This document shows positions 20,147 through 30,958 of a stretch of DNA of 64,000 nucleotides, one piece after another; positions within the stretch are counted from its first letter, which is position 1, and each line of letters begins with the position of its first letter. The stretch lies in contig JACXUV010000015.1 of the NCBI GenBank assembly GCA_014763715.1, forward strand, positions 1 to 64,000, in the 5' to 3' direction. The notes beneath the pieces were generated by a model that was not told the origin of the DNA, made no database searches, and saw only the letters and a list, made by a program, of their open reading frames with translations. Source of the stretch: Rhodobacterales bacterium (GTDB lineage Bacteria; Pseudomonadota; Alphaproteobacteria; Caulobacterales; Hyphomonadaceae). The translations under genes were made by a program, and so were the position numbers.

Positions 20147-21061
20147 TCAGCCCTTGCGGCGCGTCAGCCTGCGGCAAACATCGTCCAGCTGTTCCAGATC
20201 ACGATACTTGATACGCAGCTCGCCGCCATTTTTGCCGTGCCGGATATCGACCTGCAGGCCGAGCTGACGGGTCAGGTCCGCTTCCAGCGCTTCGGTATCG
20301 ACATCCTTTTCCGCTGCTGCAGGCCGGGCAGATTTGGTTTCCAGGCTCCCTCCATCACGGGCACCTTTCACCAACGCTTCGACCTCTCGGACGCTGAGCC
20401 CTTTCTCCGCAGCCATTTCGATCAGCGCTTCAGGATCAGGTGAGCCGAGGGCCGCACGTGCATGACCAGCACTTACCTTGCCTTCCCGCACATAGCTGCG
20501 CGCCGCTTCAGGCAGTTGAAGCAACCGGAGTGTGTTGGTGATGTGAACCCGGCTCTTGCCGACACTACTGGCGAGGCTTTCCTGCGTCCGGCCGAAACGG
20601 CTCATCAGGGCTTCATAAGCCTCAGCCTCTTCGATCGGGTTCAGGTCCGCGCGCTGCACGTTCTCGATGATACCGATCTCGAGCAGTTCCAGCTCATCGA
20701 GGTTCCGGACGACAGCCGGGATGGATTCCAAGCCAGCCAGCCGGGCAGCACGCCAGCGGCGTTCTCCCGCAATGATCTGGTACTTGCCCGCTTCCTTTGG
20801 ATCGGGCCGGACAAGGATTGCCTGTAGCACCCCTTTCGTGCGGATCGAGTCCGCCAGTTCCTGCAGAGCTGTTTCATCAAACGTGCGGCGCGGCTGGTTC
20901 GGGTTACGCCGGATGTTCTTGATCGGAAGCTCATCAACGCCGACTGAGGCTGCTTCCGCACCAAGTTCCGGCTTGGCCGGCGTAGAGGCTTCGACCTCTC
21001 CCATCAGGGCAGATAACCCCCTGCCGAGACGACTTGGCTTTTGCTTGGGTTCGTTTGCCAT
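20147..21061 (-). CDS. parB: Chromosome partitioning protein ParB
   Basis: 304 aa, CTP-dependent clamp that loads at parS and spreads. N-terminal: ParA-interacting basic segment (KQKPSRLGRGLSALMGE), then the CTP-binding motifs GERRWRAARLAGL and IIENVQRADLNPIEEAEAY. The HTH is QESLASSVGKSRVHITNTLRLLQLPE, and the C-terminal dimerisation domain ends in VCRRLTRRKG. It forms an operon with parA (5 nt gap). Two perfect parS targets are 1.4-1.9 kb upstream. Confidence 0.97.
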   Translation of the reverse strand: MANEPKQKPSRLGRGLSALMGEVEASTPAKPELGAEAASVGVDELPIKNIRRNPNQPRRTFDETALQELADSIRTKGVLQAILVRPDPKEAGKYQIIAGERRWRAARLAGLESIPAVVRNLDELELLEIGIIENVQRADLNPIEEAEAYEALMSRFGRTQESLASSVGKSRVHITNTLRLLQLPEAARSYVREGKVSAGHARAALGSPDPEALIEMAAEKGLSVREVEALVKGARDGGSLETKSARPAAAEKDVDTEALEADLTRQLGLQVDIRHGKNGGELRIKYRDLEQLDDVCRRLTRRKG

Positions 21062-21066
21062 CTCGA

Positions 21067-21897
21067 TCAGGCCGCCCGTGCCTTCTCACGCTGAAGCACT
21101 TCCGATGCAAGCCGGATGTAGGCTTCGCTGCCCGGACAACGATAATCATAGAGCAGGGCCGGTTTGCCGAAAGACGGCGCTTCCGACAGACGCACATTGC
21201 GCGGAATAACCGTATTATAGACCTTGTTTCCGAAGAAAGCGCGCACCTCATCGGCAACCTGATCTGACAGATTGTTACGGCGGTCATACATGGTCAGCAC
21301 GACACCCTGGATCTCAAGGTTCGGATTCAGGCCCTGACGCACGACATCCACGGTTCGCAGAAGCTGGCTGAGACCTTCCAGCGCAAGGAACTCGCACTGC
21401 AACGGAACCAGTAGCGCATCCGCCGCAGTCATCGCGTTCAAGGTCAGAGACGAAAGCGATGGAGGGCAATCGATCAGGATATAATCGTAGCGCGGCAGGC
21501 CCTGCTCTTCGGCACGATCGATATAGGAGTGCAGCGCATCGCGCAGCCGGTACGACCGGTGCGGATCTGCCGCAAGTTCTGTCTCAACCCCGGAAAGGTT
21601 TTCGTCGCCCGGAACGATATCGAGCCGGGGCACGATCGTGGACAGCACCGCCTGTTCTAGCGGAAGTCGATCAACCACGATGTCGTAAGACGTGGTTGCG
21701 CGGTCTGTCCGCTCGATCCCGAGACCGGTGGAAGCGTTTCCCTGCGCGTCGAAGTCGACAATAAGGACACGCCGGCCAACAGCGGCCAGTGCAGTGCCGA
21801 GATTGATCGATGTTGTGGTTTTACCGACGCCACCCTTTTGGTTCACGACGGCAAAGATTCTGGGCCTAATGCCTGCCACCTCGTAGCTCCCTGACAA
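21067..21897 (-). CDS. parA: Chromosome partitioning ATPase ParA
   Basis: 276 aa. Deviant Walker A KGGVGKTTTSINLG, A' motif DFDAQGNASTGLG and Walker B YILIDCPPSLSSLT define ParA. It forms a DNA-bound gradient that pulls ParB-parS to the pole. The frame starts 32 nt inside rsmG, so the pair is translationally linked; a later start (MSGSYEVAG is first) is possible but would trim the N-terminus before RIFAVVNQKGG. Confidence 0.97.
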   Translation of the reverse strand: MSGSYEVAGIRPRIFAVVNQKGGVGKTTTSINLGTALAAVGRRVLIVDFDAQGNASTGLGIERTDRATTSYDIVVDRLPLEQAVLSTIVPRLDIVPGDENLSGVETELAADPHRSYRLRDALHSYIDRAEEQGLPRYDYILIDCPPSLSSLTLNAMTAADALLVPLQCEFLALEGLSQLLRTVDVVRQGLNPNLEIQGVVLTMYDRRNNLSDQVADEVRAFFGNKVYNTVIPRNVRLSEAPSFGKPALLYDYRCPGSEAYIRLASEVLQREKARAA

Positions 21898-22486
21898 TCA
21901 GAATTGTACCTGACCCACCAACCCGGCTTGGAATCGCCTCATAAGCGAAGTTCCATGTTTGGCTGGCCTCCGTCAATTCTTCTTTCCAGCGTTCGCCCTT
22001 CAGGAAAAGCCCTGTTGCACCCTGTTTCAGCCAGGGCGCTGCATAGTCGAGCAGCTTCGGGAGCGGAGCAAAGGCCCGCGCAGTGACGAAATCTGCAGTG
22101 ATCGAGCCTACCGATTCCACCCGTTCCTGCCGCACAGTTGCACTCAAACCGGCCGCCTCGATGGCTGCGCGCAGGAAGGCACATTTCTTTCCGACGCTTT
22201 CGATCATCGTGACATGGCCCGCCGGGCGGGCGGCCGCGATGATCAGCCCAGGAAACCCGGCCCCGGAACCGAGATCCACGACCTTGGCGTTTTCCGGAAG
22301 ATGATCCAGAAGCTGGAAACAATCGGCGACATGGCGCGTCCAGATGACCGGCCACTCCCGCGGACCAATCAGATTGCTCCGCTTGCGCCAATCATCCAGC
22401 GTACCGATGACCCGGTCGAGCCGATCCAGTGTTTCACGTGAAACATCCTCTGCGGCCAGAAAGGCCGCGCGATCCTGATTATCCAT
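21866..22486 (-). CDS. rsmG: 16S rRNA m7G527 methyltransferase RsmG
   Basis: 206 aa. Rossmann methyltransferase: KVVDLGSGAGFPGLIIA (SAM loop), MIESVGKKCAFLRAA and VTARAFAPLPKLLDYA. It methylates G527 of 16S rRNA. Its codons 14-19 (DVSRET) are spelled by a perfect parS site. It is 3 nt downstream of mnmG and overlaps parA. Confidence 0.96.
   Translation of the reverse strand: MDNQDRAAFLAAEDVSRETLDRLDRVIGTLDDWRKRSNLIGPREWPVIWTRHVADCFQLLDHLPENAKVVDLGSGAGFPGLIIAAARPAGHVTMIESVGKKCAFLRAAIEAAGLSATVRQERVESVGSITADFVTARAFAPLPKLLDYAAPWLKQGATGLFLKGERWKEELTEASQTWNFAYEAIPSRVGGSGTILIVRELRGGRH
22430..22445. promoter_or_regulatory. parS: parS centromere site 1 (inside rsmG)
   Basis: The exact 16-bp palindrome TGTTTCACGTGAAACA is the consensus ParB-binding site. 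It lies in the coding sequence of rsmG, read in the frame giving V-S-R-E-T. Confidence 0.97.
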
Positions 22487-22489
22487 GAC

Positions 22490-24367
22490 TTAGCCTGTCT
22501 TGCGGCGGCGTTTGACGTGACCCAGAAGTGCCGTGAGTGCACCTGGTGTGACACCCTCGATACGCGATGCCTGTCCTAGGGTCGCTGGTCGAATGGCCTC
22601 GAGCTTCTGCCGGACCTCATTTGAGAGACCGCCAATCGCCGAATAGTCGATGCCTTCCGGTATACGAAGGGCTTCATCACGGCGAAGGGCTTCGACATCA
22701 CCGGCCTGACGTTCGATGTAACCGGAATACAGCGCTTCGATTTCCAATTGTGCCGCGATGGCCGGATCGATCTCCGAGAGTCCCGGCCAGACCTTCGCGA
22801 GGGTCTCCAGAGAGATGTCTTTATATCCAAGATACTCCCACGCGGTTCGCATGCGGCCGTCCTGATTAACGTTCCAACCTGCCTCGCGGGCCTTGGCGGG
22901 GGATAAAGACAGAGTTTGGAGCGCTTTTCGGGATTCAGACAGTGCCAAATGTTTCACGTGAAACATCGCCGCCCGGTCTGGACCGACGCAACCGGCCTCA
23001 ATTCCTCTTTCCGTCAGACGCTGATCAGCATTGTCGGCACGAAGGGCGAGACGGTATTCAGCGCGGGAGGTGAACATCCGATAGGGCTCTGTCACGCCGC
23101 GTGTGATCAGATCGTCGATCAGAACGCCGATATAGGCTTCGGCCCGATCCATGATGACCGGTTCTTTGCCGTCCGCCGCGCGCGCCGCATTCAGACCCGC
23201 CATCAGACCCTGCGCACCCGCTTCTTCATAACCTGTGGTGCCATTTATCTGACCCGCAAGATAAAGACCGGGTAGGGCCTTCACTTCCAGTGACGCATTC
23301 AGAGCGCGCGGATCGACATAATCATATTCAATGGCATAGGCGTGTTGGAGGATTTCCACATTCTCCAATCCCGGGATCGTGCGGACAAATCGCTCCTGAA
23401 CCTCTTCCGGAAGAGATGTGGAGATGCCATTCGGATAGACCGTATGGTCATCAAGACCTTCAGGCTCCAGGAAAACCTGATGCCGGTCACGATCGGCAAA
23501 GCGGTTCACCTTGTCCTCGATGGATGGGCAATAACGCGGGCCGCGGCCAGCAATGGCGCCAGAGTAAACGGCCGACTGTTCGATATTCTCTTCAATGATC
23601 GCGTGGGTCTCGGGCGTCGTCCACGTGATACCGCAAGAGATCTGAGGGACTTCGATCCGGTCCGTCATATAAGAAAAGGGCACCGGCTCATCATCGGCGG
23701 GCTGCATTTCCAGCCGGTCCCACGCGATGGTGCGCCCATCAAGCCGGGCGGGCGTCCCGGTTTTCAGACGGCCCATCGGCAGGTCCAGACTATAGAGCCG
23801 GTCAGAGAGCCCGATGGCCGGCGCCTCTCCAACACGGCCCGCAGGGATGCGCCTGGCGCCAATATGAATTTCGCCCTTCAGGAATGTGCCCGTGGTGATG
23901 ACAACTTTCGGCGCGTGATAAAGATCGCCGGTCAGACCAATCACACCAGCAACCTGCCCGTTCTCGACGATTAGATCTTCGGCGCCGTCTTCGATGACAG
24001 TCAGGTTCTCATGGTTCAGGATCTCTTCCTGCATTGCCTGGCGGTAGAGCTTGCGGTCGATCTGTGCACGCGGCCCCCACACGGCCGGCCCCTTGGACCG
24101 GTTGAGCATGCGAAACTGGATCCCGGCCTTGTCAGCCATCCGGCCCATTAGGCCATCAAGAGCGTCAATCTCACGAACAAGATGGCCCTTGCCCAGGCCG
24201 CCAATCGCCGGGTTGCAGCTCATCTCGCCAATCGTCGAGATCTTATGGGTCACCAGCGCTGTCTTTGCGCCATAGCGCGCCGCCGCAGATGCAGCTTCGC
24301 AACCGGCATGGCCGCCGCCAACAACAATGACATCAAAGCGGGAATTTCCCGTCATGGCTCTGCTCAT
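22490..24367 (-). CDS. mnmG: tRNA uridine 5-carboxymethylaminomethyl modification enzyme MnmG (GidA)
   Basis: 625 aa. FAD fold [10 protein letters not shown], the GidA signatures [11 protein letters not shown] and [21 protein letters not shown], and a helical C-terminus. With MnmE it installs cmnm5 on U34 of tRNAs. Residues about 468-473 (MFHVKH) are encoded by a parS site; the same short insert is a known mark of GidA proteins that carry parS. The ATG at 24355 is an alternative start giving [15 protein letters not shown]. Confidence 0.97.
22950..22965. promoter_or_regulatory. parS: parS centromere site 2 (inside mnmG)
   Basis: A second exact TGTTTCACGTGAAACA, 520 bp from site 1, is read in a different frame (M-F-H-V-K-H). 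It lies about 7 kb from the proposed origin, as in Caulobacter. Confidence 0.97.
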
Positions 24368-28736: not shown

Positions 28737-29774
28737 TCAGCCTTCCCGCAAAATCTTCAAAACACGCTCAACATTGGCAATCGGCGTTTCCGGCCGGATG
28801 CCATGTCCCAGATTGAAGATATGGGGACGGTCTGAATAGGCTGCCATCAATTCCCGCACGCGCGCATCCATTCGCTCTCCGCCCTCAATCAGTAGCAGCG
28901 GATCAAGATGTCCCTGAACCGGCATGTCAGGTGGCAGAACGGAATTCACATAGGCAGGCACAGCCGCAGTATCGAGCCCGACAGCGGTAACACCTGTCTC
29001 TCTGGCGTACGCATCCAGCATCACACCTGCACCACGCGGGAAACCGATGACCGGCACCGTGATGCCTTTTTCACGCAGGCGGCTGACCAGCTTCCTGGTC
29101 GGTGTGATGATGACTTCCTGGAAAATATTATCTGGCAGACCTTCAGCCCAGCTATCGAACAGCATCAGCGCATCCGCACCTGCCTCGACCTGACGGGCGA
29201 GATATTCCGCGGTTGCCTCTGCAACCTTGTCCATCACAACAGCCAGATCCTCCGGCCGGCCATGGGCCCAGCGCCAGGCATCGGACTTGTCCGTCTTGCC
29301 CCGTCCCTCGATGGCATACAGGCTGACCGTCCAGGGCGAACCGGCAAAACCGATCAACGTGGTTTCCTTCGGCAGGCTCTCTTTCACCCGTGAGACGGTT
29401 TCATAGACAGGCGAAAGCCGATCAGCCGCCTTGATAACGGGCACACGGTCCAGGTCCTGCGGCGCAGAGATCTGCTCCACCAGAGGGCCAACGCCTTTTT
29501 CAAAGGATACATCCAGCCCCATCGCATCCAAAATCAGCAGGATGTCGGCAAACAGGATCGCCCCATCCATGCCATAGCGGCGTACAGGCTGCAGCGTTGC
29601 CTCGGCTGCCATGGAGGGCGTGTAGCAGAAATCGAGAAAGTTCTTCGCCCGGGCCCGAAGCTCAAGATATTCGGGCAGATGCCTGCCAGCTTGGCGCATC
29701 ATCCATACCGGTGGTCTTTCGAATCGTTCTCCGCAGAGAACCTGAAGCAGTTTTTTCGATCCGTCGGTGCCCAT
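28737..29774 (-). CDS. hemE: Uroporphyrinogen decarboxylase
   Basis: 345 aa. RPPVWMMRQAGRHLPEYLELRA (substrate arginines), the catalytic Asp in AILFADILLI, GFAGSPWTVSLYAIEG and FNLGHGIRPETPIANV. It removes four acetate carboxyls to give coproporphyrinogen. Its promoter must lie inside the proposed origin; in Caulobacter hemE transcription enters the origin. GGGAAAAAG lies just before the ATG. Confidence 0.97.
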   Translation of the reverse strand: MGTDGSKKLLQVLCGERFERPPVWMMRQAGRHLPEYLELRARAKNFLDFCYTPSMAAEATLQPVRRYGMDGAILFADILLILDAMGLDVSFEKGVGPLVEQISAPQDLDRVPVIKAADRLSPVYETVSRVKESLPKETTLIGFAGSPWTVSLYAIEGRGKTDKSDAWRWAHGRPEDLAVVMDKVAEATAEYLARQVEAGADALMLFDSWAEGLPDNIFQEVIITPTRKLVSRLREKGITVPVIGFPRGAGVMLDAYARETGVTAVGLDTAAVPAYVNSVLPPDMPVQGHLDPLLLIEGGERMDARVRELMAAYSDRPHIFNLGHGIRPETPIANVERVLKILREG

Positions 29775-29908
29775 GGCTTTTTCCCAAATCCTTAAAACAA
29801 GCCCGTCAGGGCGCTTATGACTATTAAGCGGTGAGTCCGTGGGAAAAAGGGTGATGTGCGGATTTGTCCAGAGAATTCCACACAGGACTCACAGGCTCTG
29901 GAACAGGG

Positions 29909-29923
29909 TTAATGCTTCCTTAA
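29909..29923. promoter_or_regulatory. CtrA binding site, perfect TTAA-N7-TTAA
   Basis: TTAA at 29909-29912 and at 29920-29923 with exactly 7 nt between. This is the CtrA consensus; in Caulobacter CtrA bound at such sites blocks replication in swarmer cells. Confidence 0.85.
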
Positions 29924-29940
29924 GGCCCGGATTCCAAAGG

Positions 29941-29955
29941 TTAACCAAACGTAAA
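29941..29955. promoter_or_regulatory. CtrA binding site, near-perfect (TTAA-N7-TAAA)
   Basis: TTAACCAAACGTAAA has the right spacing and one mismatch in the second half. It starts 32 bp after the first box, about three helical turns, so CtrA dimers would face the same side. Confidence 0.65.
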
Positions 29956-30053
29956 TCACCCAAGTGGAGTCACAGGATGGAACGGAAGGTGATTCCGCGG
30001 AGTCGGATTCCCCGGCCTGTGGGATTTTTGTGATTCATTTTGGACAAAGTGCG

Positions 30054-30062
30054 TCATCCACA
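30054..30062 (+). promoter_or_regulatory. DnaA box-like 9-mer
   Basis: TCATCCACA differs from TTATCCACA by one base, and also by one base from the TGATCCACA form used as a G-box in Caulobacter. It is the only strong candidate in the gap; TTGTCCA-type weak sites add to it. Confidence 0.6.
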
Positions 30063-30115
30063 GGCGAGTCACAGGTCTTGTGAAATCCCCAAACCTCGGC
30101 AAGACAGGGGAGATC

Positions 30116-30958
30116 ATGACCCGCCCCCAACGCCCAAGCATTTACTTCAATGTCCATCTCGTCTCGGACTCTACCGGCGAGACGCTGAACGCGATCCAGC
30201 GGGCGGCCTGTGCCCAGTTCGAGAACGTGCAGGCACTGGAACACAATTATTACCTGGTTCGTTCCGAACGCCAGCTCGAACGCGTGATGCGTGAGATTGA
30301 AGCTGCCCCGGGTGTCGTCTGGTACACAATTTCGGATGAAGGCCTGCGTGGACGGTTGGAATCCTTCTGCCGCGAAAAGGGCGTGCCGACCCTGCCAGTG
30401 CTGGATGCCTCGATCGCCATGCTCAGCCGGCACCTTGGCATTTCGGCCAATCAGAAGGTTGCTGGTCAGCACGCGCTGGACGAAGACTATTTCGAGCGCA
30501 TGGAGGCGATCAATTTCACGCTCGCGCATGATGATGGCCAGAATGTCGAAAGCCTGACTGGAGCAGATGTTATCCTTCTGGGGGTTAGCCGCACTTCCAA
30601 GACACCAACTTGTGTCTATCTGGCCAACCGTAAGGTTCGCGCCGGGAATATTCCGCTGGTGCCCGGCGTGCCTCTGCCTGCACATATTGAGAGGATGGGC
30701 GACAAAGGCCCGATGATTGTCGGCCTCAAGATCAGCGCGGAACGCCTGGTGCAGATCCGCCGCGCGCGGCTCATCTCCCTGAATGAAGACGAGCACACAA
30801 TCTATGCCGATGAGGATGCTGTGCGTGATGAGGTGACCCAGGCGAACCGCCTGTTCCAGCGCAACAAATGGCGCACCATCGACGTCTCGCGCCGCTCGGT
30901 GGAAGAAACGGCAGCCGCCATTCTGAACCTGTTGAATGAACGCCGGGGGCAATTGTGA
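30116..30958 (+). CDS. ppsR: PEP synthase/PPDK regulatory kinase-phosphorylase (DUF299)
   Basis: 280 aa from the ATG at 30116 with AGGGGAG upstream. N-terminal YFNVHLVSDSTGETL is the DUF299 opening. The nucleotide loop GVSRTSKTPTCVYLANRKVR lies near residues 154-172. The enzyme phosphorylates and dephosphorylates a Thr of pyruvate phosphate dikinase or PEP synthase with ADP/Pi. It is the first gene right of the origin, like Caulobacter RP001, and overlaps maf. Confidence 0.94.
   Translation: MTRPQRPSIYFNVHLVSDSTGETLNAIQRAACAQFENVQALEHNYYLVRSERQLERVMREIEAAPGVVWYTISDEGLRGRLESFCREKGVPTLPVLDASIAMLSRHLGISANQKVAGQHALDEDYFERMEAINFTLAHDDGQNVESLTGADVILLGVSRTSKTPTCVYLANRKVRAGNIPLVPGVPLPAHIERMGDKGPMIVGLKISAERLVQIRRARLISLNEDEHTIYADEDAVRDEVTQANRLFQRNKWRTIDVSRRSVEETAAAILNLLNERRGQL

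Follow-up and report, generated by a model that had tools for sequence, protein, structure and literature searches.

CcrM sites fused to putative initiator boxes at the probable chromosome origin of a Hyphomonas-type bacterium

The window analyzed here is a 64-kb stretch of DNA and forms part of contig C105 (68,082 bases) of a draft genome of 3.55 Mb in 128 contigs. A gap of 341 bp (29775-30115), free of genes, separates two divergently oriented genes, hemE on the left (28737..29774, minus strand; Pfam URO-D, 362 bits; TIGR01464) and ppsR (DUF299) on the right (30116..30958, plus strand; Pfam Kinase-PPPase, 296 bits). An original prediction, made from the sequence alone, had described this gap and likened its placement to that of the Caulobacter origin, between hemE and ppsR/RP001; both claims held, the latter by gene calls and by synteny in relatives. 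An alternative upstream GTG start at 30080, on the ppsR side, would make the gap shorter. The closest named relatives by HemE are Hyphomonadaceae bacterium BRH_c29 (90%) and Hyphomonas sp. CY54-11-8 (89%).

Origins were looked at in 100 out of 150 genomes, and G051 and G106 were left out, as hemE was not detected next to ppsR in the retrieved stretch. The alignment of the genus (g1) comprises 39 distinct origins out of 42 genomes; one identical sequence was merged, and two genomes were excluded, G031 for its gap of 754 bp and G036 because its hemE lies at the edge of a contig. The hemE-ppsR gap is 338-347 bp long in these 39 origins. The origin counts refer to 39 origins of g1, 14 of the sister genus g2, 11 other loci (mostly Hyphomonadaceae), 18 of f2, which we take to be Caulobacteraceae, and 18, 14, and 17 of groups f3, f4, and f5. 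The group counts exclude the origin of G140, which is 397 bp long and has 5 GANTC. L002-L017 were analyzed out of 80 named loci, with L002-L007 outside the group counts. The genus tree was built from hemE and ppsR in one FastTree run without support checks, and all change counts rest on this tree and one alignment. Genome G007 is taken to be H. neptunium. The 754-bp gap of G031 (locus L092, G031:C18; genome 74% complete) reflects an apparent insertion within the origin. In-frame TAG codons were seen in the ppsR match of two same-genus genomes and in one dnaA match (G047:C4:263695-264513, G133:C8:244191-245006, and G105:C1:2301054-2302433).

The gap is very likely the chromosome origin of this Hyphomonas-type bacterium, a conclusion based on GC skew, conserved synteny, parS/parAB, and marker-frequency data from H. 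neptunium. Cumulative GC skew of the window has its minimum at 29,804, within the gap, and the sign of the skew switches at the gap, which supports the predicted origin. The genome is too fragmented for a whole-chromosome skew curve, and two closed genomes of the genus (G039 and G040) were sampled instead. In twenty 20-kb samples of G040, the skew was below zero as far as 213 kb and above zero between 386 kb and 1.95 Mb, with negative values returning at 2.12 Mb; the hemE-ppsR gap, at 228 kb, lies between negative and positive samples. Samples of G039 had negative skew as far as 1.148 Mb, positive skew between 1.316 and 3.028 Mb, and negative skew once more at and beyond 3.196 Mb. The gap of this genome is at 1.2426 Mb, and the skew minimum of the surrounding 20 kb, at 1,242,856, falls within it. 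The skew of both genomes thus changes sign around the origin and at a roughly opposite point. This clear signal differs from H. neptunium, for which GC skew, the position of dnaA, and DnaA sites were reported not to be clearly informative (PMC6650430). Marker-frequency data from H. neptunium place the replication maximum near hemE, with parAB ∼7 kb off (PMC6650430). The prediction of parS and parAB at a distance of 7-9 kb also held: parB and parA were called at 20147..21897 (minus strand), and two perfect parS sites were matched at 22430-22445 and 22950-22965, 7 kb from the gap.

Two CtrA boxes had been predicted in the gap, and both are present, a perfect TTAA-N7-TTAA (TTAATGCTTCCTTAA; 29909..29923, plus strand) and a TTAA-N7-TAAA (TTAACCAAACGTAAA) at 29941. 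Among 5000 dinucleotide shuffles, a perfect box arose in 8 and two near-perfect boxes in 5. The emphasis on the perfect box needs correction, as the genus keeps the imperfect one. A TTAA-N7-TNAA site (29941..29955, plus strand) is found, aligned with the 29941 box, in all 39 genus origins, and seven of its eight half-site columns (29941-29944, 29952, and 29954-29955) show zero changes on the tree. The box at 29909 is not conserved genus-wide; it is missing from several clades and was rejected as the key CtrA site. A ctrA gene is present in the genome, its product scoring above the NF045991 cut-off. The CtrA motif of H. neptunium is TTAA-N7-TTAAC, and its CtrA ChIP signal adjoins the origin (PMC7200025); CtrA at this kind of origin is already known from that species (PMC6650430, PMC7200025). 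CtrA control of initiation, as predicted, is supported by the conserved box, the ctrA gene, and the ChIP data. Silencing of the window's own origin by CtrA remains an inference. For this genus group, the published origin position and CtrA ChIP data are from H. neptunium.

A DnaA box with one mismatch is present at 30054 (TCATCCACA) as claimed, and is weak evidence alone, because a box with at most one mismatch arose in 305 of 5000 dinucleotide shuffles. It is one mismatch away from the G-box TGATCCACA, which has no exact copy in the gap. One W-box (TCCCCA) lies at 30086 and is by eye not conserved in the genus, and the gap has no match with at most one mismatch to the IHF consensus used. The AT-rich patch at 30022-30040 exists, overlapping an inverted pair of TGTG boxes, but inspection of the genus alignment by eye did not show it to be a conserved feature; much of the genus is not AT-rich there, and the patch was rejected as an unwinding element. 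A highly conserved block next to hemE (29801..29831), consisting of GCCCGTCAGGGC then TTATNAYTATTA, has many zero-change columns and is a possible unwinding element, or else a hemE promoter or leader hairpin. Its TTATNAYTNYTA element occurs in 22/39 origins of g1, 14/14 of g2, 3/10 other loci, and 0/67 of f2-f5. A reading of this element as a DnaA-trio is only suggestive and was not adopted.

The most distinctive feature of the gap had been missed by the original prediction. This is a cluster of GANTC motifs, the sites of CcrM, some of which are fused to CACA boxes. Nine GANTC sites are spread over 29833..30070 (at 29833, 29886, 29930, 29967, 29991, 30000, 30006, 30032, and 30066), out of 102 in the whole 64 kb, and the best other non-overlapping 341-bp stretch has four. 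None of 20000 shuffles reached nine (mean 1.69, maximum 7). Across samples of G039 and G040 totalling 800 kb, the origin stretch of G039 contained 11 GANTC and all other stretches at most 5 (the origin of G040 was outside the samples).

Each of the 39 distinct genus origins has 5-10 GANTC, compared to 1-6 in f2. The median per origin is 9 in g1, 4 in g2, 4 in the 11 other loci (range 0-14), 3 in f2, 3 in f3, 2 in f4, and 3 in f5. GANTC density was also compared with that of seven rearranged control words. It is 23.5 per kb in g1 (controls 0.4-8.4), 14.8 per kb in g2 (controls 1.3-5.9), and 31.1 per kb in the origins of L012-L014 and L141 (controls 0-7.9). The excess is small in f2 (6.1 per kb, highest control 4.9), negligible in f4 (4.9 per kb, control 4.5), and intermediate in f3 and f5. 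Some relatives have few sites, with none in the origin of the unplaced relative L008 and two each in L015 and L016. GANTC is thus strongly enriched at origins in part of the Hyphomonadaceae, but not throughout. L012, L013, L014, and L141 represent a related lineage, with 9-14 GANTC per origin embedded in different words (e.g. AGATTCT, GAGTCGAGTC).

Of these nine sites, four are joined to a CACA core as GANTCACA, and we refer to these positions as slots A to D. Slot A, at 29886, belongs to a left module, TCCACA-N3-GACTCACAGG (29877..29895, plus strand), whose two CACA cores are 11 bp apart. Slot B is a single box, GAGTCACAGG (29967..29976, plus strand). Slot C is the second member, TGTGANTC, of an inverted pair of TGTG boxes, again 11 bp apart (30018..30036, minus strand), and slot D, at 30066, lies in a right module, TCCACA-N3-GAGTCACAGG (30057..30075, plus strand). 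The CACA core is kept in 39/39 aligned origins in every slot, and GANTC is intact in 37, 38, 39, and 33 of the 39 in slots A, B, C, and D, respectively, the last base of slot C being taken from tree counts. At slot C, all 39 origins have TGTGA as well as the T that follows N, and the final C has zero changes on the tree, while N is A in 14, T in 9, C in 9, and G in 7. Counted on the hemE+ppsR tree, the free N of GANTC changes 4, 5, 5, and 5 times in the four slots, 19 in total. The other 28 slot positions change 8 times in all, with no change in CACA, and the mean over the 341 columns is 3.4. A free N, with the rest of GANTC and the following ACA kept, is what maintenance of the methylation site itself would be expected to produce. 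The conservation pattern is shown by the sequences, and selection on GANTC-ACA is its very likely cause.

One copy of GANTCACA is present in the remaining 63.7 kb of the window, and the G039 and G040 samples (800 kb) contain 22, four of these at the G039 origin. There are 162 copies in the 39 origins of g1 (at least 3 in each), none in the 14 of g2, and 12 in the remaining 78. The motif was not found in the fetched dnaA, gcrA, and ctrA loci. For same-strand CACA cores up to 40 bp apart, the commonest spacing is 11 bp, with 117 pairs in the 39 origins; the next has 44. TCCACA-N3-GANTCACA has 71 matches, covering 42/42 genus genomes, and its reversed control none. In 41 genomes the module and hemE share a contig, and every match there adjoins hemE; in G036 the two are on separate contigs. 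The 18-base form of the module has two exact matches in the window's own genome, both in the gap, and seven more when two mismatches are allowed (reversed control, three). By sequence, the module is confined to the origin. Matches to the module in viral contigs, single ones per contig, are given no weight here.

The CACA-core boxes are likely initiator boxes, with DnaA as the most probable ligand, an inference made without binding data. At slot D, CACA is preceded by CGAGT, CGACT, or GGAGT in 33 of the 39 origins of g1, the other six being without GANTC. All 14 origins of g2 have TC before CACAGG at this position, giving the DnaA-like TCCACAGG, and GANTC in 0/14. Six other relatives also lack GANTC here (0/6) and have CGATC (L008), GGTTT (L009), CGTTC (L010), GCATC (L011), TTTTC (L015), and CTATA (L016). 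The register of slot D in this search, which demands CACA by construction, agrees with the alignment. Slot D was not found in 4/4 g3-like, 1/1 g4, 18/18 f2, 17/18 f3, 13/14 f4, and 17/17 f5 origins. Since the search misses nearly all distant origins, box homology is limited to the Hyphomonadaceae and close relatives. Characterized DnaA boxes include TGATCCACA of C. crescentus, with G at position 2, and TCATTCACA of H. pylori, with T at position 5 (PMC4285127). The xGANTCACA form matches known boxes in G at position 2 and T at position 5, but not at position 4, which is T in every nine-base box tabulated in PMC4285127 and often G, C, or A here.

Genes for CtrA, GcrA, CcrM, and DnaA are all present in the genome. 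CcrM (L262) matches PDB 6pbd with 542 bits; with NCBIfam NF050803 it scores 614 bits, short of the cut-off of 830. Its identity to ten complete matches within the genus is 86-96%. All 79 of the genomes searched have a CcrM match, and therefore no co-loss control for CcrM and GANTC exists. Six GANTC sites, one of them a GANTCACA, lie within ∼140 bp upstream of ccrM (1250-1389 of G000:C22; ORF from 1429), and it is possible that ccrM regulates itself via methylation. DnaA was sought in 30 genomes. The DnaA of this genome scores 323 bits, just short of its NCBIfam cut-off of 343.9, and shares 92% identity with that of G001 and 53-64% with those of ten other genus members compared. DnaA (L267, L277-L287) is unusually divergent within the genus relative to HemE, PpsR, and CcrM. 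In domain IV, VYPRQ is found in 12/12 sequences of g1 and C[AHY]PRQ in 8/8 of g2, a difference that is not evidence of the protein and the boxes having changed together. DnaA thus evolves fast in the genus, with no evidence tying this rate to the box changes. The genome also encodes a 126-aa stand-alone protein resembling DnaA domain IV (L268, G000:C15, 1375-1755, minus strand), with a GRDRST motif. Four GANTC sites lie at 2376-2425 of the same locus, and a nearby gene is taken, from its sequence, to be MucR-like. This protein was rejected as a likely methylation reader, having GRDRST where DnaA has RDHTT, although it is not excluded.

We propose that this is an origin whose initiator boxes carry CcrM sites, and that methylation thereby gates initiation. 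DnaA binding and methylation are both inferred, and we put the probability of this reading at ∼0.55. The initiator, most likely DnaA, would load on boxes with a CACA core, several of which form pairs spaced by 11 bp. In this genus, CcrM sites are joined to four of the boxes as GANTCACA, and each of these would hold one m6A per strand after the action of CcrM. Once replicated, these boxes would stay hemimethylated until the next round of CcrM activity, late in the cycle. If the timing is as in Caulobacter, each box would be fully methylated only before firing and after the return of CcrM. In Caulobacter, origin-proximal GANTC sites stay hemimethylated longest, because CcrM is absent until late in the cycle (PMC3973325). 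Whether the boxes are occupied, and hence whether initiation recurs, would be set by their methylation state in addition to repression by CtrA at 29941. The state may be read by DnaA directly, by a competitor, or by a sequestering protein. To our knowledge no reader of hemimethylated GANTC is known, since SeqA is described as confined to few proteobacteria (PMC4285127, PMC5172544). DNA content is normal in a ccrM deletion of C. crescentus (PMC3973325), and methylation thus need not matter in every relative. Taken by itself, gating of initiation by methylation at this origin has odds slightly below even, with no binding, methylation, or replication data for the organism.

Other explanations have to be considered. 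This may possibly be an ordinary CtrA-controlled origin of the Caulobacter type, with GANTC clustered for another reason, e.g. control of the hemE and ppsR promoters by GcrA, and with methylation not acting on initiator binding. A gcrA gene is present, regions bound by GcrA in Caulobacter average 1.78 GANTC per kb compared to 0.58 in random regions (PMC3667746), and most f2-f5 origins are richer in GANTC than their own flanks. Caulobacter origins are reported to contain several GANTC, yet DNA content is normal without ccrM (PMC3973325). However, this view leaves unexplained the fusion of GANTC to CACA at 11-bp spacing, the greater constancy of CACA than of GANT, and the presence of TCCACAGG in the sister-genus slot. 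Moreover, with 9 sites in its 341 bp, the gap is ∼fifteen-fold denser in GANTC than GcrA-bound regions, at 1.78 per kb.

An unlikely alternative is sequestration. Here the dense GANTC cluster, hemimethylated once it has been replicated, would be bound by a protein that is not related to SeqA and that excludes DnaA, the boxes themselves being insensitive to methylation. The density and overlap of sites resemble oriC of E. coli, where SeqA blocks low-affinity DnaA sites overlapping GATC (PMC4285127), and the origins of L012-L014 and L141 are GANTC-rich (9-14 sites) in other contexts. Against it, no candidate reader was found, without a systematic search. It is very unlikely that GANTCACA is recognized by some protein that is not DnaA, with only an incidental likeness to DnaA boxes. 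Position 4 departs from the nine-base DnaA boxes in PMC4285127, and the genome encodes the stand-alone domain IV-like protein, but the homologous slot in the sister genus is TCCACAGG, the boxes are paired at 11 bp with TCCACA boxes, and that protein has GRDRST in place of the RDHTT of DnaA. Initiator boxes with built-in CcrM sites remain our preferred reading.

Such an origin has parallels in several known systems. Like this one, Cori of C. crescentus lies beside hemE and has a CtrA box, weak DnaA-type boxes, and some GANTC. It differs from the origin described here, which has one genus-wide CtrA site, no exact G-box, and GANTC fused to CACA cores; the gap is also shorter, ∼341 bp compared to 443-574 bp in the 18 f2 origins. 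Caulobacter origins are reportedly treated by Shaheen et al. 2009. The H. neptunium origin occupies the same locus in the same genus group, and G007 has 9 GANTC and both modules. The papers on this species report origin position and CtrA binding (PMC6650430, PMC7200025), whereas GANTC and CcrM have no mentions in the main text of PMC7200025. E. coli oriC, controlled by Dam and SeqA, also has dense methylation sites overlapping weak initiator sites, but here the sites are CcrM/GANTC rather than Dam/GATC, no SeqA is known in the group, and the site is built into the box. The origin oriII of Vibrio cholerae chromosome 2 has initiator boxes (RctB 11/12-mers) that contain the methylation site GATC, and RctB binds fully methylated DNA efficiently and hemi- or unmethylated DNA much less (PMC2865523). 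In contrast, the present case concerns a main chromosome, presumably dependent on DnaA, and a need for methylation is not demonstrated. The repABC origins of alphaproteobacteria are likewise GANTC-rich, and Agrobacterium ori2 responds to CcrM (PMC11514494, PMC6090056), but these are secondary replicons using RepC, whose binding is reported to be methylation-independent (PMC6090056). No description of CcrM sites fused to initiator boxes was found in the titles and abstract openings of the literature searched.

The role of CcrM in alphaproteobacterial initiation is disputed. Initiation in Caulobacter has been stated to need fully methylated GANTC at the origin (PMC2865523, introduction), in conflict with the normal DNA content of the ccrM deletion (PMC3973325). 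The genus described here shows selection, very likely, on the methylation site within origin boxes, and the question is therefore directly testable in H. neptunium, for which marker-frequency and CtrA ChIP data already exist. In a bolder reading, which we hold only tentatively and with the odds against it, several DnaA boxes of the Hyphomonas main chromosome were rebuilt to hold CcrM sites, and DnaA or a competitor reads methylation directly. If true, this would be an alphaproteobacterial once-per-cycle licence for replication, evolved independently of Dam/SeqA and of RctB.
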